A DNA stretch of 37,395 nt from a virus, in the IMG/VR virus record IMGVR_UViG_3300037839_000669, positions 1-37,395 of that record, one strand, 5' to 3'. Of the stretch, positions 2,040 through 35,816 are shown piece by piece; within the stretch, counting starts at the first letter, position 1; each line of letters starts with the position of its first letter. The notes beneath the pieces are model-generated. The model saw nothing but the letters and a program-made list of their open reading frames with translations. It made no database searches and was not told where the DNA came from. A program made the translations under genes and the position numbers.

Positions 2040-2458
2040 TGGACCAGGGGGAAATCGAATCCCCGTCTTTTAAAAAGTCAAATTAAAATACTACAAGTTT
2101 ATCTTATTCCGTTATTTCGCTATAGTGTCGAATAAGCAATTGAGCTATAGCTATTTATTTAAAAATGAATATAACCTTAGCTATATCCACCCTGAATAAT
2201 ATCTTTAAAAATTAAATAAAAAGGATTTAAAGACATACATCTAAATACCCATTATCCTACTAGATGTGTCATAGGTAACAGGTCGCAGATTTTTAGGCTG
2301 CGATTAGGTGCTTCTTATTGTGAGAAACTCTCAATGAGAAACTACCTTTTAGCTTAGCTGTTTTGGCAGTTAAGTGTTTTTGAAGCTGTTTAAAGAGTCT
2401 ACTTCAACTCTACTTGCATTTCAATTCCATTTTTTAAAATCGAAACCAGATCTGGCCC
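2040..2458 (-). ncRNA. ssrA: tmRNA (transfer-messenger RNA)
   Basis: One-piece tmRNA of about 419 nt that rescues stalled ribosomes. The ends form a tRNA-like domain: 5' GGGCCAG pairs with 3' CTGGTCC (7 bp, one G-U). The T arm is GGGGA-TTCGATT-TCCCC. The 5' part reads GATCTGGTTTCGAT, like the usual GATTCTGGATTCGAC. An H-type pseudoknot follows: AGAGT/ACTCT with loop TGAAG pairing to downstream CTTCA. The reading frame starts at GCC (2367) and runs 24 codons, beginning AKTAKL and ending HLIAA, to TAA at 2295-2293. The stop sits in a CGCAG/CTGCG hairpin as expected for helix 5, and the two other frames are blocked by stops. CCA is not encoded. A canonical promoter lies just upstream, so it is an independent transcription unit. 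Confidence 0.95.
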
Positions 2459-5066: not shown

Positions 5067-7325
5067 CTATAATTTACACGCTCCGCTAGCACAATCATCT
5101 TCTTTTTGAGTCATAGATTGTTCTTTGTCACCATCATCTGTATTATTATAATATAAGCTTATTAAGCCAAGGCTATATGCATACATTATTTCTTTCATGA
5201 CTTTAGAATCTGGCAATATGTTATTCTCATAATGACTATAATTGTAGTATACATTAGTTGATATGGCCATGTCAATATACTTTTGAATAACAGCATTAAT
5301 TTTCAATAGCCCAATATTATCTTTGAGATCATAAGCTAGTTCGTAGTTCTCTTCATATTTTCCGATTCCTGGAACCATAACTGGAAGTTTGCCCATTTTA
5401 CTAGTCTTGTAAGTCATAAGACTACGAATTGGTTCAACACCATTTGTAGAGCATTGGATGACTGAACTACTTTCGCAAGGCATACAAGACGAAAGTGTAG
5501 AATGTCTTAGTCCAAACTCTTTTATATCTTTTCTTAATTGTTCCCAATCTAAAGATAATTTTCTTTTAACAATTTCATCTAATTTATCTTTGTATGTATC
5601 TATAGGTAATAGTCCTTGAGAATACTTTGTTCTATTAAATTTTTCACACTTGCCTTTTTCTTTAGCTATTTCAAGGCTAGACTTAAGAAGATAGTATTGG
5701 AAATGTTCCATCCATTCATCGAGGACTGTTAAAGCTTTATCAGAGCTATATTTTAATTCATTTTTAGCTAGATAAGCTGCAAGGTTTGTAATTCCAACTC
5801 CTAAACTTCTACGTTTCTTAGCAAAATTTTCAGCAGCAATATTAAAGTACTCTTGAATATCTATGATTTCATCAAGAAATCTCACGATTAGATCGCAGGT
5901 CTTTTCAAGATCTTGCCAATTTTTTATCTCTAGCATATTGACTGCTGAAAGGATACACATTCCAATTTCCCCGTTTTTATCATTATAATCATTTAAAGGA
6001 ATAGTAGGATGAATAACTTCTGTGCATAGATTACTCATTGTTACTTTATCAAGCCAAGCACCATGATCATTAGCATGATCAATATTAAGAATATAAATAC
6101 GGCCAGTCTCTACTCTTTCTTTAACTATAAGAGAAAACAATTTTCTAGCAGAAACTTTCTTTTTTATCTTTAATCTTTTAGATTCGCACTCTTTGTAAAC
6201 TTTATCAAAGTCTTTTGTTCCCCAAGCTTCATAAAGTTCTGGAACTTCAGCATTATTGAATAAGGTAATATCTTCATCTTTAAGAACTCTATCATAGAAT
6301 AGTTTACTCATACCAATTGTATAATCGAGCTTTCTGACTCTATTATCATCTGTACCAGCATTATTTTTTAATACTACCACATCTTCAATTTCATAATGCC
6401 ACCATTGAATATTGCAAGTTGCACTACCACCTCTTAATCCATTTTGTTGCCAAGCTTTTACGCTACTTTCATAAATTTTTAAGAATGGAATTAATCCAGT
6501 ATGAACTACTTCTCCATTTTTGATCGGAGATCCAATAGCTCTAATTTTTGAAACATCAATACCAATTCCACATCTATTTGCTGTGGCCATACTAACTGCT
6601 GTAGCACTAGCAGTAATACTTTCTCTTGTATCGTCCACACCAATAAGACAACAGCTTGCATAATTTTTACTAGAAGTTCTGACTCCTGCCATAATTGGCG
6701 TTGGAAGATTAATTTTGTGCTTGCTAATAGCATCATAGAATTTTCTTACATAATTGAGTCTTGTTTCAATTGGATAGTTAATAAAACTATAAGCTGCTAT
6801 TAATAGGTAAGCAAATTGAGGAGTCTCATAGATGACTCCATTAGTTCTATTTTTAATTAAATATTTATCGCAAAGTTGCTTTATACCAGCATAGGTGAAT
6901 ATAAAATCTCTGTCGTGGTCTATAAATTCGCCAATCTTATTAATTTCATCTGATGTATATTTCTCTAATACAATAGGATCATAAATTTTATTTTTTACAT
7001 TGTTTTGTATAAATTCTATTAATCTTGGAGCGTGTTTGCCATTCCAAACTTCTTTTCTTAGTTGATAATTAAGAAGCCTACTTGCTACATATTGGTAATT
7101 AGGACTAGATATAGATATAAGGTTAGCGGCACTTTCTATTAGTAGAGAATGAATTTCCTTTGATGAGATTCCATCTTTCATGCTAATTTTAGCATTGATC
7201 TCAATATCGGTTAAGCTAACATTTGAATAGCCATCGATTGCCCATTTGATGACTTTATTTATTTTTTCTATATCGAATTTCTCTAAAGTCTCATTTCTTT
7301 TTTTGATTAAAATTTGTTTACTCAT
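5067..7325 (-). CDS. nrdA: Ribonucleoside-diphosphate reductase, alpha subunit (class Ia)
   Basis: 752 residues, close to the 761 of E. coli NrdA. It reduces NDPs to dNDPs. The N-terminal ATP-cone is intact (about residues 1-95, ILIKKRNETLEKFDIEKINK), so dATP feedback control may be kept. Catalytic parts are visible: CCLIGVDD (first redox cysteine), NLCTEVIHP (radical cysteine and glutamate), VYYNYSHY near the C-terminus and the swinging CASGAC pair in the last ten residues. nrdB follows with a 4-base gap. The next gene on the other side is the divergent tail fibre. There is no intron or split, unlike several phage nrdA genes. Confidence 0.95.
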   Translation of the reverse strand: MSKQILIKKRNETLEKFDIEKINKVIKWAIDGYSNVSLTDIEINAKISMKDGISSKEIHSLLIESAANLISISSPNYQYVASRLLNYQLRKEVWNGKHAPRLIEFIQNNVKNKIYDPIVLEKYTSDEINKIGEFIDHDRDFIFTYAGIKQLCDKYLIKNRTNGVIYETPQFAYLLIAAYSFINYPIETRLNYVRKFYDAISKHKINLPTPIMAGVRTSSKNYASCCLIGVDDTRESITASATAVSMATANRCGIGIDVSKIRAIGSPIKNGEVVHTGLIPFLKIYESSVKAWQQNGLRGGSATCNIQWWHYEIEDVVVLKNNAGTDDNRVRKLDYTIGMSKLFYDRVLKDEDITLFNNAEVPELYEAWGTKDFDKVYKECESKRLKIKKKVSARKLFSLIVKERVETGRIYILNIDHANDHGAWLDKVTMSNLCTEVIHPTIPLNDYNDKNGEIGMCILSAVNMLEIKNWQDLEKTCDLIVRFLDEIIDIQEYFNIAAENFAKKRRSLGVGITNLAAYLAKNELKYSSDKALTVLDEWMEHFQYYLLKSSLEIAKEKGKCEKFNRTKYSQGLLPIDTYKDKLDEIVKRKLSLDWEQLRKDIKEFGLRHSTLSSCMPCESSSVIQCSTNGVEPIRSLMTYKTSKMGKLPVMVPGIGKYEENYELAYDLKDNIGLLKINAVIQKYIDMAISTNVYYNYSHYENNILPDSKVMKEIMYAYSLGLISLYYNNTDDGDKEQSMTQKEDDCASGACKL
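5070..5079 (-). promoter_or_regulatory. GTGTAAA-type promoter element inside the nrdA 3' end
   Basis: GTGTAAATTA on the minus strand overlaps the codons for Cys-Lys-Leu at the nrdA C-terminus and lies 17 bases before nrdB. The overlap with conserved codons means chance is possible. Confidence 0.4.
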
Positions 7326-23738: not shown

Positions 23739-24254
23739 ATGAAAATTATATTTATATTAATGCTATTAAGTGTTTCGACTTGCTTTGCACAAAGGCAAGA
23801 AGCCACGATTACCAGAACATTCGGCACTAACAGCGTATATCCAAGGCAATTTCCATCAATGACTGTAAGGAAGATGAATGACAATGAATATTGGCTATAC
23901 GATAGTTTAAGTACTAATACAATTTTTCATAGGATATTTCCAACTTATATAGTGCGAAAACAAAACACTTATACTTCATCTCAAGGATGGGGAGTATATA
24001 GGACAACTTCTACTAACAGCGTATTTCCAACTCAATTTCCAGATAGATATATATCAAATCTAGATTGGAACTCTGAGAAGGGAAACAATATTGAAGATAA
24101 ACAAAACAATCGGGATTTTATAAAATCAAAATTCGATTCAGACAACTTAAAGTTTAAGAATGATAGCAATTTAAATCAAAGCTCAAGCTATACTTATACC
24201 AAAAGTCTTAGATCAGACAAGAAATCATCTTATTGTCCAGAGATTCCAGAATGA
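23739..24254 (+). CDS. Exported repeat protein
   Basis: 171 residues from ATG at 23739 (MKIIFILMLLSVSTCFA), a clear signal peptide with likely cleavage after CFA; further upstream codons add nothing to it. The mature part contains three diverged repeats built on T(N/S)-(S/T)-(V/I)-(F/Y)-P-x-x-FP, spaced about 38 to 45 residues apart. The C-terminus is charged and Ser/Asn-rich. It should act in the periplasm or outside. Exported phage proteins can block superinfection, modify the envelope or assist lysis; the sequence does not decide. Confidence 0.72.
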   Translation: MKIIFILMLLSVSTCFAQRQEATITRTFGTNSVYPRQFPSMTVRKMNDNEYWLYDSLSTNTIFHRIFPTYIVRKQNTYTSSQGWGVYRTTSTNSVFPTQFPDRYISNLDWNSEKGNNIEDKQNNRDFIKSKFDSDNLKFKNDSNLNQSSSYTYTKSLRSDKKSSYCPEIPE

Positions 24255-24598
24255 AAGATGCGTTTTTAATTTCATTTTTGAATACTCTTATTCTTTTGGT
24301 ATGGTTTCAAACTAATGCATTTGCAGAGTATTTCAAAAACTTCTTCATTATCAAAAAGATAATTAGGTCTTATAATTCTTCTCTTAAAGCGGATCTAAAG
24401 ACGAGTTTCGTTAACTTTCTGAGTTTAAATTATGATTGCTTTTTCGTTAGGTTGATTACATGTCCATTTTGCTTGAATTTTTGGATATCCATTTTAACTA
24501 GTTTTTTTGTTGGATATGAATTTTTTCCTTTAATTTATGTATCAAGCATGATATACTATAAGGTAGTGAACATACTGACTAAATATGAGCGAATTTGA
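24251..24598 (+). CDS. Membrane protein with CPFCLNFW motif
   Basis: 115 residues from the ATG at 24251, which overlaps the previous stop (ATGA). Two or three hydrophobic segments: FLISFLNTLILLVWF at the start and a C-terminal WISILTSFFVGYEFF...YVSSMIYY. A CPFCLNFW sequence, like those of small phage inner-membrane proteins, could place a metal or disulfide at the membrane face. It follows directly on the exported protein, so the two may work together in the envelope. Function unknown. Confidence 0.68.
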   Translation: MKDAFLISFLNTLILLVWFQTNAFAEYFKNFFIIKKIIRSYNSSLKADLKTSFVNFLSLNYDCFFVRLITCPFCLNFWISILTSFFVGYEFFPLIYVSSMIYYKVVNILTKYERI

Positions 24599-24891: not shown

Positions 24892-25998
24892 ATGAAGATA
24901 CAAATTGATGCTGGACTTGGATATGATGATATCTGCTTGCTCCCAAATTTCTCTGATATTTCTTCTAGAAAAGAAGTTAGTACAATAACTAAGATATCAA
25001 AAAATAAATATATAGATATTCCGTTAGTATTATCTCCAATGGATACTGTATCTTCAGTAAAATCATGCATAAAAATTAACAAAATTGGTGGAGCAGGAGT
25101 CCTTCATAGATTTATGAGCGCAGAAGATCAGATGTTAAAAGCTTGTAAAATTAAAAATGAGAGTGCATTTTGCATTTCTGCAATAGGATTAAAAGACTCA
25201 GAACATAGGATTAGTCTATTAGATAAATATACGGATGTATTTTTTCTAGATACCGCTAATGGTCTAGCTAAAAGCGTGGAAGACTTCTTAATTTGGTACA
25301 AGCAATCTCAATATAAGCAAGATATTATAGTAGGTAATACATTAACCAAGTCTAGCGTCTACAGATTAGCTAATTTAAAAGCAGATGGATTTAGACATTT
25401 AATTGGTCCAGGAAGCATGTGTTTAACTCAAATCAAGACTGGAATTGGATGTCCTAGTGTTACTGGGCTGTCTTATGCTTGGGAAGCTATTAGAAATTAT
25501 CAATTAGCTAATGCAGATCATTTTCGTCAAGAAAATCCTAAAGAAGAAGATCGTCCAAGTATTCTTGCTGATGGTGGAATAAGAAATCCAAGAGATTTAG
25601 TCAAAGCTATTGCTAGTGGAGCAGACGCAGTAATTTGTGGTAGAATTTTTGCTGGTTTAGCTGACGTTGTAGATGAAGAAAATATCATAGAAAAAGATGG
25701 ACGATTATTCGCTGCTTACAGAGGAATGGCAAGTAAAGACGTAGTTGAAGATTACGAACTCTATGATGGCAGTAAAAAGAATCTATTTGTCGAAGGAGAT
25801 AAAATTTTGATCCCTTTGATTCAAGACAAGACGATTGAAGATGTAGTTTACGATTATGCAAATGGCTTGAGAAGTGCAATGAGTTATCTTGGATTTAGGA
25901 GCATAGAAGAAATGCGTGGAGGCATTTGGGATAATAAAATTAAAGTAATTTCTCCAACTGCAAATAGCATGTATGAAGCTTTTGCTCATGGTAAATAA
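24892..25998 (+). CDS. IMP dehydrogenase / GMP reductase family protein
   Basis: 368 residues. Catalytic loop GPGSMCLTQIKTGIGCP with the active cysteine at about residue 177, phosphate-binding ADGGIRNPRD and ICGRIFAGL, and YRGMAS. The CBS domains of most bacterial IMPDHs are absent. The flap near residue 305 lacks the Arg-Tyr pair of IMPDH (KKNLFVEGDK), which leans to GMP reductase, but the rest fits both. It would redirect purine nucleotides between IMP and GMP. With adenylosuccinate synthetase nearby, the phage carries enzymes at both IMP branches. Confidence 0.85.
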   Translation: MKIQIDAGLGYDDICLLPNFSDISSRKEVSTITKISKNKYIDIPLVLSPMDTVSSVKSCIKINKIGGAGVLHRFMSAEDQMLKACKIKNESAFCISAIGLKDSEHRISLLDKYTDVFFLDTANGLAKSVEDFLIWYKQSQYKQDIIVGNTLTKSSVYRLANLKADGFRHLIGPGSMCLTQIKTGIGCPSVTGLSYAWEAIRNYQLANADHFRQENPKEEDRPSILADGGIRNPRDLVKAIASGADAVICGRIFAGLADVVDEENIIEKDGRLFAAYRGMASKDVVEDYELYDGSKKNLFVEGDKILIPLIQDKTIEDVVYDYANGLRSAMSYLGFRSIEEMRGGIWDNKIKVISPTANSMYEAFAHGK

Positions 25999-26000
25999 AT

Positions 26001-26306
26001 ATGATTGGCATAGACATTGTTGAAATTAAAAGATTTAGAAATAAAAAAGACTCATTTTTTAATAAAATCTTTTCGACAAGAGAGATAGCTGAAACTACAG
26101 AGTCCAATCTGTCTCAGAAACTAGCTGGTAAATGGGCAGCAAAAGAAGCCGCTTATAAAGCAGGTATATCACATATGAATAAAGATATTGAAATTCTTAC
26201 AGAGGATCGTAGACCAGTGATATATGTACATGGAGTCAAAAATAATGCAATGGTTTCAATAAGTCATGAAAAAGAATATGCCACAGCTGTAGTCTTTAAA
26301 AATTAA
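26001..26306 (+). CDS. acpS: Holo-acyl carrier protein synthase
   Basis: 101 residues, near the usual 120. It transfers 4'-phosphopantetheine from CoA to the serine of an ACP. Both magnesium-binding blocks are intact: GIDIVEIKRF near the N-terminus (Asp5) and LAGKWAAKEAAYKAG (Glu49). The end, VSISHEKEYATAVV, is typical too. A gene for a probable ACP lies about 1.7 kb downstream on the same strand. An AcpS gene in a phage is rare in my experience. It starts 3 bases after the IMPDH-type gene and should be in the same transcript. Confidence 0.9.
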   Translation: MIGIDIVEIKRFRNKKDSFFNKIFSTREIAETTESNLSQKLAGKWAAKEAAYKAGISHMNKDIEILTEDRRPVIYVHGVKNNAMVSISHEKEYATAVVFKN

Positions 26307-26314
26307 AGATATAA

Positions 26315-26983
26315 ATGAAAGCTGACATTCTGATATTCTCAGACGTTCATTTAGGGTCGCAAGACTGTCGAGCAAATGAGCTTTTAAAGATTCTTAAAAA
26401 AGTTAAAGTCAAAAAAATTATTATTGCTGGGGATCTTTTTGATCATCATAACCTGCATAGATTAAAAAAAGAACATTGGAAGGTTCTATCGAAGCTAAGA
26501 AAACTCTCAAAGAAATGTAAGATAATATACCTAATTGGTAATCATTGTTTCCTTAAAGCAGAATTTATGAGCATATTATTAGGCTTTCAATGTCAGAACC
26601 AATACGACCTTGATTACAATAATAGCAGGATTCTTGTTGTTCATGGAGACATATTTGATATATACTTTACTAAATATAAATTTCTTACGAATTTTGTGGT
26701 AAAACTTTATTATCTTATTAGAAAGTACACTCCATTCGCAGATGACGCTTTTAGAATTCTTAAAAATAGAACTAATAGCTTTGTAGAAAGAAGTTCTGAT
26801 TTGAAAAAGAATGCTATAAAATATATAGAATCCAATGGATATGATAAAGTAATCTGTGGACATAGTCATATACCCGAACATTCACAAAATTATATAAACT
26901 CTGGCAGTTTCTGTGAAGAAAAATGCACCTACATTATGATAGATAAAAAAGGTAACATACAATTAAATTATATCAATGATTAA
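26315..26983 (+). CDS. LpxH-like metallophosphoesterase
   Basis: 222 residues. All five binuclear-metal blocks are present in order: SDVHLGSQ (9-16), AGDLFDHH, IGNHC, VVHGDIFD and CGHSHIPE. The layout matches the UDP-2,3-diacylglucosamine diphosphatase-like branch, with its helical insert between HGD and GHSH (NFVVKLYYLIRKYTPF...RSSDLKKNAIKYI). The usual aspartate after GNH is a cysteine here, so activity may be changed. LpxH works in lipid A synthesis on an acylated sugar nucleotide, which makes the nearby ACP and AcpS genes suggestive of an envelope pathway. It overlaps the next gene by 8 bases. Confidence 0.78.
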   Translation: MKADILIFSDVHLGSQDCRANELLKILKKVKVKKIIIAGDLFDHHNLHRLKKEHWKVLSKLRKLSKKCKIIYLIGNHCFLKAEFMSILLGFQCQNQYDLDYNNSRILVVHGDIFDIYFTKYKFLTNFVVKLYYLIRKYTPFADDAFRILKNRTNSFVERSSDLKKNAIKYIESNGYDKVICGHSHIPEHSQNYINSGSFCEEKCTYIMIDKKGNIQLNYIND

Positions 26984-27968
26984 TAATGTAGATATCATCT
27001 TTGGATTATGCTGGGGAGACGAAGGCAAAGGCAAAATTTGCAACGCTCTATCAAGTAAATATGATTATGTTTGTAGATGGAATGGTGGACCAAATGCAGG
27101 ACATACTGTTTACTTAAATGATAAAAAATATAAAACACATTTAATTCCTTCTGGGATATTCCACAATAAGAAATCTATTATTGGTCCAAATTGCGTTATT
27201 AATATTGATAAATTTTTTGATGAACTAGATTATCTTAAAAAAGAAGGATTTGATACTTCTTTAGTTAAGGTCAGTCCAAAGGCACACATTATAACCCATA
27301 GACATATTGAATATGATCTTAAATTCTTGAAGCCTAAGCTCGGCACAACTGGTCAAGGTATCGCTCCTTGCTATTCAGATAAAATGTTAAGATCGGGCAA
27401 ATTAGCTAAAGACTATCTAGAGGCTAAATACATTTGGAATGGCGAACTAGAAGGAGATGTTATTTGTGAAGGTGCTCAAAGTTTTTGGTTAGATATTAAT
27501 TATGGTCATTATCCTTATGTGACAAGTAGTGAAACATTGCCTTACTCAGCTTGCTCTTTAGGTTTTAGTCCCAAGCTTATTAGAGACATAATTGGGGTAG
27601 CTAAAATATATGATACTAAAAGTGGAGTCGATCCTTTATTTCCAGAGTCTTTATGGGAAGACATAGAGTTGAATAGGCTAATAGAACTAGGGAAAGAGTA
27701 TGGCACTACCACAGGCAGAAAAAGACTAGTCAATTGGTTGAATTTTAATAAATTACTATATGCTGTTAAAGTATCTGGCACAACAAAATTGATAATCAAT
27801 AAATGTGATATATTACAAGAGCTGAATATATTTAAAATGAGGTTAGATAATGAATTTGGCCCTAACTTTATTAAGTTTAATGATTTTGACAATATGAAAG
27901 AATATATATCAAGAGAATTAAAGATGCATTGTGATGTGGTATTTTCTGGAGATAAGGAGAACATTTAA
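26976..27968 (+). CDS. purA: Adenylosuccinate synthetase, short form (PurA family)
   Basis: 330 residues, compared with about 430 in most bacteria but close to archaeal and phage members. It makes adenylosuccinate from IMP, Asp and GTP. The N-terminal GLCWGDEGKGKI holds the catalytic Asp, then NGGPNAGHTVY, GTTGQGIAPCYSDKMLR, EGAQSFWLDINYG and TTTGRKR. The archaeal-like size prompts a check for PurZ, which makes 2-aminoadenylosuccinate in Z-DNA phages; PurZ, as I know it, lacks this Asp, so normal PurA activity is more likely. No MazZ or DatZ gene is visible in this window. Confidence 0.9.
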   Translation: MINNVDIIFGLCWGDEGKGKICNALSSKYDYVCRWNGGPNAGHTVYLNDKKYKTHLIPSGIFHNKKSIIGPNCVINIDKFFDELDYLKKEGFDTSLVKVSPKAHIITHRHIEYDLKFLKPKLGTTGQGIAPCYSDKMLRSGKLAKDYLEAKYIWNGELEGDVICEGAQSFWLDINYGHYPYVTSSETLPYSACSLGFSPKLIRDIIGVAKIYDTKSGVDPLFPESLWEDIELNRLIELGKEYGTTTGRKRLVNWLNFNKLLYAVKVSGTTKLIINKCDILQELNIFKMRLDNEFGPNFIKFNDFDNMKEYISRELKMHCDVVFSGDKENI

Positions 27969-27975
27969 ATATAAT
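27947..27975 (+). promoter_or_regulatory. sigma70-type promoter, leaderless configuration
   Basis: TGGAGA, 17-base spacer, perfect TATAAT. The -10 ends 7 bases before the ACP ATG at 27982 and overlaps the end of the purA gene. Confidence 0.6.
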
Positions 27976-27981
27976 GTATAT

Positions 27982-28260
27982 ATGAAAACAATAAATCAAG
28001 ATTTTGTTAAAGATTCGATTCGCAAAGAGCTTCTTAAAGAGAAGAGAGATGTAGAGATTAATAGTTCTACTCTTCTTAAAGATTTCAATTTAGATTCTTT
28101 CTCTTTATTATCCATCGCCTCAGAAATTGAAGATGAATATTCTGTTTGGCTCATTAAAAATCCTCAACAAATAAGAGAGATGCAAAATAGCATGGAGACT
28201 TTTGGAGAGTTTGTTACATTTTTAGAGGCAAAAATCAATGATGCAACAAGGGCCAGATAG
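27982..28260 (+). CDS. Acyl carrier protein
   Basis: 92 residues from ATG at 27982 (MKTINQDFVKDSIRK). It has the ACP shape: helix I, the loop with LLKDFNLDSFSLL where Ser39 is the phosphopantetheine attachment serine (DSF in place of DSL), then an acidic helix II (IASEIEDEY) and a C-terminal helix (ETFGEFVTFLEAK). The longer loop between helices II and IV is unusual. With acpS in the same run, the phage could load it with phosphopantetheine itself. No ketosynthase or acyltransferase is visible in this window, so the acyl source would be the host. It has its own TATAAT 7 bases ahead. Confidence 0.8.
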   Translation: MKTINQDFVKDSIRKELLKEKRDVEINSSTLLKDFNLDSFSLLSIASEIEDEYSVWLIKNPQQIREMQNSMETFGEFVTFLEAKINDATRAR

Positions 28261-28561
28261 AGCAACTCAACGAGAAAGATTGTACGAGATAGCTAAATTT
28301 TATGGTAAAGATAAAGCGGACGCTAGACTTAACCAACTGATTGATATTTATCACGATAAACTTGATCAACTACCGATTCCCCGATCTAGAACAGATATAA
28401 CATATTATGTCTCTGATTTAATGAATGATATAGGAATAGACCTAGTTACATATGAAGAAAAATGGTGGACAAGGAATTCTTTCTATGTTGCAACAGCTAG
28501 CCAATTCGGATTTACAAAAAATGAATGGAAAAATCTTGTAGAGTATATAACAAATGTTTAA
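28238..28561 (+). CDS. Small hypothetical protein
   Basis: 107 residues; two consecutive ATGs (28238, 28241) fit equally well. It overlaps the end of the ACP gene by 23 bases, so translation should be coupled. Helical, with several Arg and Asp (QRERLYEIAKFYGKDKADARLNQLIDIYHDKL, then PRSRTDITYYVSDLMNDIG). No family recognised. The pairing with the ACP suggests it may be a partner of that pathway, but there is no direct evidence. Confidence 0.7.
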   Translation: MMQQGPDRATQRERLYEIAKFYGKDKADARLNQLIDIYHDKLDQLPIPRSRTDITYYVSDLMNDIGIDLVTYEEKWWTRNSFYVATASQFGFTKNEWKNLVEYITNV

Positions 28562-31113: not shown

Positions 31114-31421
31114 ATTGGATTAAAATATTAAATTTTATTGATGGAGTTTTTCCAGAAGAGAAAGTTCAACCAACTTTGGGAACACTTTACAAACTTAAAG
31201 GAGAAGAACTACCATTCAGATATATCAGATTTGCGAATGACTCTTATCCAAATAGACCCATATATCATTTTAAGCATCATCAACTCAAAGAATATAAGTT
31301 TACTAATTTAGACAAAGTCGAAAGAGAAGCCAATAAAGAAGAAGTCAGATTATATAATTTAATAAAAAATCATATAAATGAAACAGCTAGAAATAATCAA
31401 TATAGATTTGATGATTATTGA
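31110..31421 (+). CDS. Small hypothetical protein
   Basis: 103 residues. Features: WIKILNFIDGVFPEEKVQPTLG, YKLKGEELPFRYIRFAND, a HFKHHQLKEYKF segment rich in histidine, and a helical end. No family recognised. It lies just before the carbamoyltransferase, whose TTG start overlaps its stop (TTGA), so translation is probably coupled. Confidence 0.62.
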   Translation: MNWIKILNFIDGVFPEEKVQPTLGTLYKLKGEELPFRYIRFANDSYPNRPIYHFKHHQLKEYKFTNLDKVEREANKEEVRLYNLIKNHINETARNNQYRFDDY

Positions 31422-32914
31422 CAGTGAAACTCTTATGTTTAAGACTTTGCGAGCATGATAGTAGTTTTTGTTTTTTTGATGGAGAAGTTACAAAATACAT
31501 AAAATTAGAGAGGATAAAAGGAATTAAGCATTTTGCATACAATGACTTATATTCTTGGCAGAACGATTTTAAAAGTATTTTTAATGAAAGTGTTAGCTCT
31601 TTGGATGAAGTAGCGATCATTATTGATCCATGGATTTATGATAAGCCCTTAGATGAAAATGAGTTTCTTTTTAAAAAAATTGATTATTTAGATTTGCATT
31701 GTCCAGTTTGGAGGATAAATCATCATTATGCTCATGCTCTAAGTGTTCAAATACTAACAGATAGGAAATCAGATATTGATATCGTTCTTGATGGATTTGG
31801 TGATTTTGACCAAGCATGGACAGTTTTTAAACAAGGAGAAGTAATAGAAAAAGGTTCTTTAAAAAAATGTAGCTCAATTGGTATTGAAATGGCTCAAGCT
31901 GGTCTATCTTTGAATATAAAATGTGAAAATATAATTGATGTAGCTGGTAAGCTAATGAGCTTACAATCTTATGGAACTCTATCTAAAGATTTTCTAAATT
32001 ACTTAAATGGTTATTCTATTAGAGATTGTAAAAAACTATTCGATTTTAAGAATTGGATAAATTTTTTGCAAAATAAAGATGTGGCCGAATTGTCTCGTTT
32101 AGATTGGATAAAGACTTTGCATGAAAAGAGTAGTCATCTAATGTTAGACTTTTTTAAAGAGTTCGCAAAAAGAAATGAAAAAATAACATTTACAGGAGGA
32201 GTAGCTCAAAATATAATTTGGAACACTAGACTTAAAAATCATTTTCAAAATCTTACTATCCCACCTCACTCTCTTGACGATGGATTGACTTTAGGAGGCA
32301 TGGTATGGTTAAAGGGAAAGAATAGCTTACCAAAACTTAAATTTGATTCATTTCCTTATATTCAATATGATGAAAAGCCTAGAGCTTATCCTAGCAAAGC
32401 AACAATAAATGAAGCCGCTAATATTCTTGCAAATGGCTTTGCACTTGGATGGTATCAAGGTCATGGAGAAATCGGCCCAAGAGCTCTTGGTAATAGATCA
32501 GTTCTTTTAGATCCAAGACTTGAAAATGGTAAAAATATAATTAATGAAATTAAAAGAAGAGAGAGCTATAGACCTTTTGGGGCAACTGTTTTATATGAAT
32601 TCAAAGATGAGTATTTTGATATAGAAGAAGATCCATATATGCTTTTCGTTGCAAATATAAAGAATCCTAGTTATCTCAAATCAATAGCTCATATAGATAA
32701 CTCTTGCAGAGTCCAAACTCTAAAAAATGAAAATTCAATATTTAGATCTTTATTAGAGCGATTCCATGAAATAACAGGTTGCCCAATACTCTTGAACACA
32801 AGTATGAATATAGCTGGTAAGCCATTAGTCGGAACAATCAAGGATGCTGAAACATTTTTTCAAACAACAAATTTAAAATATCTAGTAGTTGGAAATGAAA
32901 TCCTCAAAAAATAG
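31418..32914 (+). CDS. Carbamoyltransferase (NodU/TobZ type)
   Basis: 498 residues from TTG (a GTG two codons later is a possible start). The N-terminal Kae1-like ASKHA domain has NHHYAHAL (about 102-107, metal binding), DIVLDGFGDFDQ and FTGGVAQNI. The C-terminal YrdC-like part has GPRALGNRSVLLDPR, YRPFGATV and LNTSMNIAGKPLVGTIKDA. It makes carbamoyl adenylate and passes the carbamoyl group to a hydroxyl. In phages this family has been linked to carbamoylated 5-hydroxymethylcytosine; other acceptors such as sugars are known. No cytosine hydroxymethylase is seen in this window, so the substrate is open. Confidence 0.88.
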   Translation: MTVKLLCLRLCEHDSSFCFFDGEVTKYIKLERIKGIKHFAYNDLYSWQNDFKSIFNESVSSLDEVAIIIDPWIYDKPLDENEFLFKKIDYLDLHCPVWRINHHYAHALSVQILTDRKSDIDIVLDGFGDFDQAWTVFKQGEVIEKGSLKKCSSIGIEMAQAGLSLNIKCENIIDVAGKLMSLQSYGTLSKDFLNYLNGYSIRDCKKLFDFKNWINFLQNKDVAELSRLDWIKTLHEKSSHLMLDFFKEFAKRNEKITFTGGVAQNIIWNTRLKNHFQNLTIPPHSLDDGLTLGGMVWLKGKNSLPKLKFDSFPYIQYDEKPRAYPSKATINEAANILANGFALGWYQGHGEIGPRALGNRSVLLDPRLENGKNIINEIKRRESYRPFGATVLYEFKDEYFDIEEDPYMLFVANIKNPSYLKSIAHIDNSCRVQTLKNENSIFRSLLERFHEITGCPILLNTSMNIAGKPLVGTIKDAETFFQTTNLKYLVVGNEILKK

Positions 32915-32927
32915 TTTTAGACTATTT
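32909..32927. terminator. Bidirectional hairpin between convergent genes
   Basis: AAATAGT, 5-base loop, ACTATTT, 7 pairs, spanning the stop codons of the carbamoyltransferase and the 2OG oxygenase genes. Read leftward it is followed by a short U run (TTTTTTG), so it best fits the oxygenase transcript. Confidence 0.5.
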
Positions 32928-33549
32928 CAAAATTTAATGTGAATGTGATTCTTTTTTTACTTGATGTGTTATACTTTACGAAATGACTCAAAGATGATGG
33001 GAAAATAATTAAATCTCCTTGCTGAACATCTAAAGGAGTATAGTTCGTCATATAAAATGATTTTTTTGGATCTTTTTTATTAATTTTATTAATCAAAGGC
33101 TTTCTAAATGAAAACTGAGCTTCTGCTGCGACGGAATTTGGATTAACGAATGTGGTTGCTAAGTGCTCAGATTCATCGAATGATACATAATGCACCAAAG
33201 AGAAATCATGTGGGAAATGAGTATGTGCCTCTTGAAATTGATTAATAGAAAATACATTGTACCAAGGATCAAAAATTTTAAATTCAGCAGGTTTATCTAA
33301 AAATTCTTCTAAAAATGAATTTATATATTTTGCATAAATAGGATTAAGCCACTCACTATCTAGCTTCATATTAGGATCATTACTCTTGTAGCTACTATGA
33401 ATTGAGCACTCCCAATCAGAAGGTATGATCACGGGCTTTTCATTTGAGTAAGCTTCAATTTTATTTAAAGATTTATCTAATATTTCTTGATTTTCTTGTA
33501 CTTGGGCTTTCCATATGAAAGCACCAAAAATTTGAGTGAACTCTGCCAT
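32917..33549 (-). CDS. 2OG-Fe(II) oxygenase family protein
   Basis: 210 residues from the ATG at 33549. The pattern HTHFPHDFSLVHYVSFDESEH, VQQGDLIIFPSSLSHFV and KRITFTLNFEIV gives the double-stranded beta-helix core with likely iron histidines and a C-terminal arginine for 2-oxoglutarate. It is the type annotated as 2OG-FeII_Oxy_5 in aquatic phages, whose substrates are unknown. Convergent with the carbamoyltransferase (stops 2 bases apart), so the two are not one operon but might act in one pathway. A TATAAT ends 7 bases before the ATG. Confidence 0.8.
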   Translation of the reverse strand: MAEFTQIFGAFIWKAQVQENQEILDKSLNKIEAYSNEKPVIIPSDWECSIHSSYKSNDPNMKLDSEWLNPIYAKYINSFLEEFLDKPAEFKIFDPWYNVFSINQFQEAHTHFPHDFSLVHYVSFDESEHLATTFVNPNSVAAEAQFSFRKPLINKINKKDPKKSFYMTNYTPLDVQQGDLIIFPSSLSHFVKYNTSSKKRITFTLNFEIV

Positions 33550-33555
33550 CACTAT

Positions 33556-34916: not shown

Positions 34917-35816
34917 ATGCGAAAAGGAGTATGCTGTATTGTTTCAAGTTTAGCTGAACAAGATGAACCCATTAAGTTCAATACTATGACTTATGCTCGC
35001 TTCTCATCTATGGATAGAAAAGAAGCTGTTTCTACCTTATCTTCTAGGATATTAAACAATATGACTACCACTTATCAGTACATAAAGTATTGTGCCGACC
35101 ATAATCATACTTATAGAATTTCTTCTGATCTATTTCCTCTTATTACTTATGACAAGGCAAATGTAAAGCTAGAAGATTTACCAGACTATAATAAAATATT
35201 AGTATCATTTGATAGTATCAAGAACCTTATTCAATCTAAAAATGTTAGAGTATCTTGTCATCCCTCTGAATTTAATGTTCTTGCAAGCGATAATGAAAAT
35301 GCGATCACCAAAACAATTAAAGAATTAAACTTCTATGGTTGGTTTATGACTCAGATTGGTTGCTCACTAAGCTATGATGCACCTATGAATATGCACATAC
35401 ATAATTCCAAGGGTGATCTAAATGATATAGTTAAAAAGTTTATGAGTAATTTTAATAAGCTAACTGATGATGTAAGGTCTAGATTGGTTATAGAAAATGA
35501 TGATAAAGATACTTGCTGGTCAGTTAAGAAGCTAATGAGGCATTTCCATTCGGTTTCTAATATTCCTATTACTTTTGATTATCTTCATCACAAATGTCAT
35601 CCAGATAGCTTATCAGAAGAAGAAGCATTTCATCTTTCACGCATTACTTGGGGCAATCATACTCCACTATTTCATTACTCTGAGAGTATAGATGGACATA
35701 AGAATCCAAGGAAACACGCTGACTATGCAAAAAACTTGCCAAATACTTATGGTTATGATAATATAGATGTTGAGTTTGAATTAAAGATGAAAGAAAGATC
35801 ATTTGCAAATTTATGA
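34917..35816 (+). CDS. uvsE: UV damage endonuclease
   Basis: 299 residues, the usual length. It nicks 5' of UV photoproducts without a glycosylase step. The N-terminal MRKGVCCIVSSLAE matches the first strand, which fixes the start. Metal residues of the TIM barrel are visible: HPSEF, NMHIHNSKGD, VIENDD, ITFDYLHHKCHP and HYSES. Phages exposed to sunlight use such repair. It is preceded by a leaderless promoter. The next gene overlaps its stop (ATGA), giving an operon with a small membrane peptide. Confidence 0.9.
   Translation: MRKGVCCIVSSLAEQDEPIKFNTMTYARFSSMDRKEAVSTLSSRILNNMTTTYQYIKYCADHNHTYRISSDLFPLITYDKANVKLEDLPDYNKILVSFDSIKNLIQSKNVRVSCHPSEFNVLASDNENAITKTIKELNFYGWFMTQIGCSLSYDAPMNMHIHNSKGDLNDIVKKFMSNFNKLTDDVRSRLVIENDDKDTCWSVKKLMRHFHSVSNIPITFDYLHHKCHPDSLSEEEAFHLSRITWGNHTPLFHYSESIDGHKNPRKHADYAKNLPNTYGYDNIDVEFELKMKERSFANL

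Follow-up and report, generated by a model that had tools for sequence, protein, structure and literature searches.

A co-inherited acyl carrier protein and putative holo-ACP synthase among the purine genes of a tailed phage

Small free-standing genes for an acyl carrier protein (ACP) have been annotated as auxiliary metabolic genes in Erythrobacter phage vB_EliS-R6L, Vibrio phage R16F, Alteromonas phage R22Y and Rhodobacteraceae prophages, and in the passages concerned their function is termed unclear or speculative (PMC5463345, PMC10152775, PMC11705849, PMC8224337). A gene of the same kind was found in the IMG/VR viral record IMGVR_UViG_3300037839_000669, a fragment of a tailed phage of 37,395 bases and 31% GC, which was analyzed at its full length and is called the window in the following. 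Whereas a phage holo-ACP synthase (AcpS) is unmentioned in those passages, the window has a co-inherited activating enzyme as well as its ACP. A literature search outside most subscription journals recognised no report, among the sources available, of a phage AcpS with its ACP. Phage ACPs are already known, and what is new here, to the extent of this search, is the co-inherited phage AcpS. The two genes are the following:

26001..26306, plus strand: AcpS, predicted 4'-phosphopantetheinyl transferase of the holo-ACP synthase type, 101 aa (Pfam, TIGR00556, solved AcpS, motifs)
27982..28260, plus strand: acyl carrier protein, 92 aa, with the predicted attachment serine S39 in N-L-D-S-F (profiles, fold, motif)

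The AcpS passes the cut-offs of the Pfam family ACPS (2.4e-13, 50.5 bits, cut-off 25) and of TIGR00556 (68.5 bits, cut-off 45.35) and stays below that of the narrower equivalog TIGR00516 (43.2 vs 59.8). Solved AcpS proteins are matched from 9e-9, and the alignment runs along the protein and includes the conserved blocks. D5, R11, K48, E49, K53 and S86-I87-S88-H89 are invariant in nine aligned sequences, which bears out the conserved motifs that the original prediction had read in this gene; they include the conserved Asp, Lys-Glu and Ser-His blocks of the family. The protein resembles bacterial AcpS (solved structures 3hyk and 1f80) over its length and in these blocks, but is shorter, and whereas delta-proteobacterial loci show a pdxJ-acpS-NAD(P)HX-epimerase setting (names assigned by eye), the window AcpS lies in a phage purine operon. 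The nearest cellular AcpS found in a single genome scan with the window AcpS are 43-49% identical. Since cellular matches never exceed 49% identity, no donor is named.

The ACP likely starts at the ATG at 27982 rather than at the GTG at 27931 given in the mechanical list of open reading frames (ORFs). On its own it scores below the cut-offs of PF00550 (16.0 bits, E 0.015, cut-off 20.8), which 6 of the 12 ACPs of the window clade exceed, and of the NCBIfam ACP model (2.7e-6, 27.5 bits, cut-off 66). A profile built from eight ACP relatives matches solved ACPs from 2.2e-5, and the AlphaFold model (11 rows, mean confidence pLDDT 82.6) matches almost only ACPs, with a probability near 1 but E of only about 0.01. 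Both the D-S-x attachment motif and the four-helix fold were found, the latter on the predicted model and the solved-ACP profile. D38-S39 is invariant in the 11 aligned sequences, and with it the serine of the DSF motif to which attention had been drawn before.

The distribution of the pair was followed by scanning IMG/VR with the window PurA, a purine enzyme encoded between the two genes, which gave 80 loci whose ACP and AcpS content was scored with phage profiles of both proteins. ACP and AcpS are both present in 11 of these loci and both missing in 69, and neither occurs alone. Record-wide Pfam searches were run on 48 records, made up of the window, L030 and L002 together with 45 PurA loci from the set of 80; they located AcpS in 14 and a PP-binding carrier in 13 of those 14, with neither in the other 34; the sole record with AcpS only, L002/G002, stops inside PurA, before the ACP site. 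Many surveyed records are fragments, so the absence counts apply to fragments and not to whole genomes. Within these records ACP and AcpS are kept or lost together and are thus co-inherited, which answers the search for co-occurrence proposed earlier. In a PurA tree of 76 rows the ACP-positive label requires two changes; L060 is weakly placed beside L091, and a single origin is possible.

Selection was estimated as the median ratio of nonsynonymous to synonymous substitution rates (dN/dS, Nei-Gojobori), using only pairs with a synonymous difference (pS) between 0.05 and 0.6. The median is 0.233 for AcpS (39 of 78 pairs) and 0.257 for ACP (12 of 66 pairs, maximum 1.094), compared with 0.082 for the IMP dehydrogenase/GMP reductase-like neighbour (IMPDH/GMPR; 17/78), 0.086 for PurA (35/78) and 0.042 for the phosphoesterase of the same gene block (16/66). 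AcpS and ACP are under purifying selection, yet they are less constrained than the neighbouring enzymes. Neutral decay of AcpS, named beforehand as an observation that would speak against a function, was looked for and not seen in these data, the catalytic residues being invariant. That the pair came from a host, was inserted in one subclade and matters little there is hardly credible: its patchy distribution and its faster evolution would suit such a passenger, but not the purifying selection, the invariant residues and the open frames in 13 of 13 AcpS and 12 of 12 ACP genes of the clade.

Other viruses were reached through a broader AcpS alignment, which was composed of the G001 row, three window-clade phage rows and nine cellular rows and led to 56 viral loci. 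After G001 and 11 window-clade loci had been left out, 44 records were searched for PP-binding domains, and 18 of them have such a carrier, 13 over the cut-off. Ketosynthases were detected in 9 of 50 AcpS-bearing records and an AMP-binding enzyme in 1 of 31, namely G066. ACP and AcpS together had been called unusual, which agrees with the isolate phage collection searched but not with the metagenomic viruses. In that isolate collection the window ACP has no match at E up to 1 in a single-sequence tblastn search, a weak method whose negative outcome says little about isolates, because the published phage ACPs were also unmatched. AcpS matches only four short unannotated 'Listeria phage' records, which are presumably bacterial contamination.

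Carrier and AcpS occur in several settings. In setting (a), L242/G077 and, more tentatively, L250/G085 and L256/G091, all distant relatives of this phage, have both in the vicinity of ribonucleotide reductase, DUF1360 and further shared genes. In L250 and L256 the ACP-like ORF was missed by Pfam and matches the window family weakly (hhalign probability 14%); its profile finds solved ACPs first (E 0.011), so that it may tentatively be regarded as an ACP. Setting (b) is G066, a relative of the window phage whose terminase is 67% and whose portal-like protein is 52% identical to those of the window. Here ACP, AcpS, an acyl-AMP ligase and a short-chain dehydrogenase/reductase (L231, 3647-10455), in this order, are embedded among genes for sugar nucleotides, aminotransferases and acyltransferases, with RmlD-like, DegT aminotransferase, hexapeptide transferase, glycosyltransferase and sugar dehydratase genes as neighbours. 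In setting (c), comprising G056, G057 and G062-G064, each record has a ketosynthase; in L216, L217 and L227 AcpS follows a primase-like gene (by eye) and an ACP-like gene directly precedes the ketosynthase-like gene. Ketosynthases are also present in setting (d), with G001, G053, G058 and G089. Pfam confirms desaturases in two of these records, G001 and G089, and a FabZ-like protein is encoded in G089 and, judged by eye, also in G058. Of 23 records tested for terminase PF03237, 9 have it, belonging to the window clade and to some of settings (a), (b) and (c); Gp23 (PF07068) turned up in one of the 23 only, G060. Because no record of setting (d) has terminase PF03237, the viral status of this setting rests on the IMG/VR classification.

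Apart from these settings, the 52.6-kb viral contig IMGVR_UViG_3300013006_001903 (L111-L113) encodes about a dozen desaturase-like ORFs recognised by eye, one of them checked with Pfam, together with a ketosynthase, ACP and AcpS, and resembles an unsaturated-fatty-acid or polyyne cluster.

The best explanation for the pair is that the phage encodes a self-activating acyl-carrier module consisting of its own AcpS and its own ACP, to which we assign a probability of roughly 45%. The phage AcpS would move 4'-phosphopantetheine from host coenzyme A (CoA) onto S39 of the phage ACP. Homology, the invariant motifs and co-inheritance make it very probable that this AcpS modifies this ACP. The resulting holo-ACP would be loaded with an acyl group by host enzymes of fatty acid synthesis, or by a phage enzyme encoded beyond the fragments sampled, and would pass it to an acceptor, most likely a lipid of the envelope or a glycan of the surface or the virion. 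In some relatives the phosphoesterase may assist, although it would not belong to the core. Because the pair is kept or lost together, the phage probably transfers acyl groups to a molecule in the cell it infects. A phage-run acyl-carrier step, as the original prediction had proposed, is made plausible by the co-inheritance and motif conservation of the pair and by the carrier-using enzymes of other AcpS-bearing viruses, G066 among them. Among the possible uses, transfer to a lipid or glycan leads, since elsewhere among these viruses carriers are found together with enzymes that build or activate acyl groups, and in G066 together with amino-sugar genes; drawn from the companions of the pair in other viruses, this end use is put forward tentatively.

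Several observations weigh against the module. Neither a ketosynthase nor an AMP-binding enzyme was detected in the 13 window-clade records (0/13 each), all of them fragments of at most 47 kb, and no acyl-transfer enzyme was recognised among the operon proteins scanned. The end use is an analogy, because the partner enzymes belong to other lineages. Furthermore, the pair is located among purine genes, and the dN/dS of ACP is based on 12 of 66 pairs, one of which reaches 1.09. The missing loading or transfer enzyme would also agree with a decoy or regulator, in which phage holo-ACP binds the partners of host ACP or sequesters acyl groups and CoA, and thereby retunes host lipid synthesis or the alarmone response, with AcpS keeping it in the holo form. 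E. coli ACP is known to bind SpoT (PMC3340395), a precedent for such binding. However, an AcpS of its own is not obviously needed by a decoy, and in other viruses the carrier is paired with acyl-handling enzymes, so that we consider this explanation rather unlikely. For the self-activating module, confidence in the components is high and confidence in the biology moderate.

The pair belongs to a plus-strand gene block that spans 22909 to about 30270 and encodes, in order, dCMP-deaminase-like and dUTPase-like proteins, an unknown protein, a DUF1360-like protein, a further unknown, the IMPDH/GMPR-like protein, AcpS, the metallophosphoesterase, PurA, ACP and small unknowns. The neighbours considered here are:

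24233..24598, plus strand: DUF1360-like protein, common to distant AcpS-bearing relatives (Pfam 5.2e-4, 20.4 bits vs cut-off 21)
24892..25998, plus strand: IMP dehydrogenase/GMP reductase family protein, directly preceding AcpS (Pfam IMPDH 5.4e-63)
26315..26983, plus strand: metallophosphoesterase of predicted LpxH fold with motif III GNHC, an optional neighbour of the pair (fold, profiles)
26976..27968, plus strand: PurA-type adenylosuccinate synthetase, 330 aa, with GDEGKG kept (Pfam 7.4e-81)
27970..27975, plus strand: TATAAT, candidate -10 element of a leaderless transcript (conserved spacing)
28238..28561, plus strand: 107-aa protein of unknown type, whose gene overlaps the 3' end of the ACP gene

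Relatives keep the order IMPDH/GMPR, AcpS, [28554 homologue], phosphoesterase, [72-aa gene], PurA, ACP; the two bracketed genes are present only in some of them and the phosphoesterase is absent from G007. A single shared order for this gene set is far beyond chance. The conserved small gene of about 72 aa between phosphoesterase and PurA (e.g., L005, about 6990-7216) does not occur in the window.

The metallophosphoesterase had been described as LpxH-like and as lying between AcpS and ACP. Its position is as described, except that PurA lies there as well and had been overlooked, like the IMPDH/GMPR-like gene upstream. In its model (pLDDT 79.8, with an insertion at low confidence) the fold is predicted to be that of LpxH, UDP-2,3-diacylglucosamine diphosphatase, the closest solved fold. 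LpxH takes ranks 1-25 in Foldseek and comes first in VIA-align (Z 17.6-19.3, root-mean-square deviation 2.8-4.2, 170-214 residues aligned), followed by YfcE at 16.1, and a profile of 29 phosphoesterase sequences matches E. coli LpxH at 8.9e-6. The likeness to the enzyme itself holds less well: identity to LpxH is 17-20%, the NCBIfam LpxH equivalog cut-off is missed by far (41.6 vs 134 bits), and motif III is G75-N76-H77-C78, invariant in the 29 aligned sequences, and not the GNRD of the E. coli form.

The phosphoesterase is encoded in 31 of the 80 PurA loci, 10 of the 11 with the ACP-AcpS pair and 21 of the 69 without it, and the ACP-positive record G007 keeps the pair without it. It was therefore rejected as an obligate partner and counts as an optional neighbour. 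A lipid A step, in which a Gram-negative host has its lipid A, or an acylated sugar nucleotide related to it, remodelled by ACP, AcpS and the LpxH-like enzyme together, would draw on the predicted fold and on the place of the phosphoesterase next to AcpS in the 10 ACP-positive loci, but the pairless loci, G007, motif III and the LpxH score all speak against it, and we regard it as unlikely. Likewise, the placing of the LpxH-like enzyme in the same step as the pair could not be upheld.

The purine genes of the block leave room for a different use. The carrier might provide the acyl or aminoacyl moiety of a purine modification in nucleotides or DNA, together with the IMPDH/GMPR-like and PurA-type enzymes, and this is a live rival because the pair sits among purine genes, AcpS and ACP flanking phosphoesterase and PurA downstream of the IMPDH/GMPR-like gene. 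It is nevertheless quite improbable, as most of the 80 loci contain PurA and the IMPDH/GMPR-like gene but lack the pair, the pair in L242 stands without any purine gene in its vicinity, and the PurZ model is not reached. PurZ, the 2-aminoadenylosuccinate synthetase of Z-genome phages, belongs to the same phage-borne adenylosuccinate-synthetase family, and PHROG 1211 carries its name, but the window protein scores 102.8 bits against a cut-off of 300 and keeps the PurA-type GDEGKG, which is invariant in 21 aligned sequences. PurZ and the 2-aminoadenine pathway were dropped and the protein filed as PurA-like. The IMPDH/GMPR-like protein reaches no NCBIfam equivalog cut-off. Among the 80 PurA loci (L031-L110) 57 distinct IMPDH/GMPR-like proteins were counted, recurring with PurA near dCMP deaminase. 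The two enzymes might turn G nucleotides of the host into the A nucleotides that an AT-rich phage would use.

A promoter of its own had been assigned to the ACP gene. In 12 of 12 sequences exactly 6 nt separate TATAAT from the ACP ATG, which upholds the element as a candidate and as part of a common arrangement in the clade. Among 371 genes predicted in the window and in six relatives, the distance from TATAAT to the start codon peaks at 6, 7 and 8 nt (22, 13 and 8 cases), other spacings having at most 6 cases, and a Shine-Dalgarno-like core was found in just 5 of 44 window genes examined. Window starts with TATAAT 6-8 nt upstream include 17650(-), 22350(-), 22789(-) and 27982(+). The pattern fits a -10 element of leaderless transcripts, and leaderless transcription may be widespread in the clade. 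A general promoter scan of the window gave 54 matches compared with 43.8 in shuffles (standard deviation 6.2); the evidence is therefore the conservation of TATAAT and not the scan match.

The tailed-phage markers of the window are a terminase (PF03237), ribonucleotide reductase, PhoH, one transfer-messenger RNA (tmRNA) and two tRNAs. The tmRNA (2040-2458, minus strand, Rfam 97.7 bits) has an unusual tag peptide, and tag and tRNAs yielded no clear lead to the host. Further genes encode a NodU-type carbamoyltransferase (31418-32914), present in some relatives only, a putative 2-oxoglutarate-Fe(II) oxygenase (32917-33552) and a UvdE-like UV endonuclease (34917-35816). A defence role was dropped, as PADLOC gave only two weak matches, ThsA for the phosphoesterase (0.0012) and a homing endonuclease for the 24585 protein (0.0027).

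Taken with the other viral settings, the window tentatively appears as the minimal form of self-activating carrier systems held by several viral lineages, which would make thioester-bound acyl groups for decorating lipids or glycans, either in the infected cell or on the virion. As part of the same tentative picture, such systems might be extended in some lineages by ketosynthase, FabZ-like dehydratase and desaturases, and in the window relative G066 by an acyl-AMP ligase and amino-sugar genes. The co-inherited activating enzyme makes the role of the phage ACP testable, and the acyl group on purified holo-ACP would reveal which product the phage makes or draws on. The wider survey points to carrier-protein chemistry as a strategy that recurs among viruses rather than a stray host gene.

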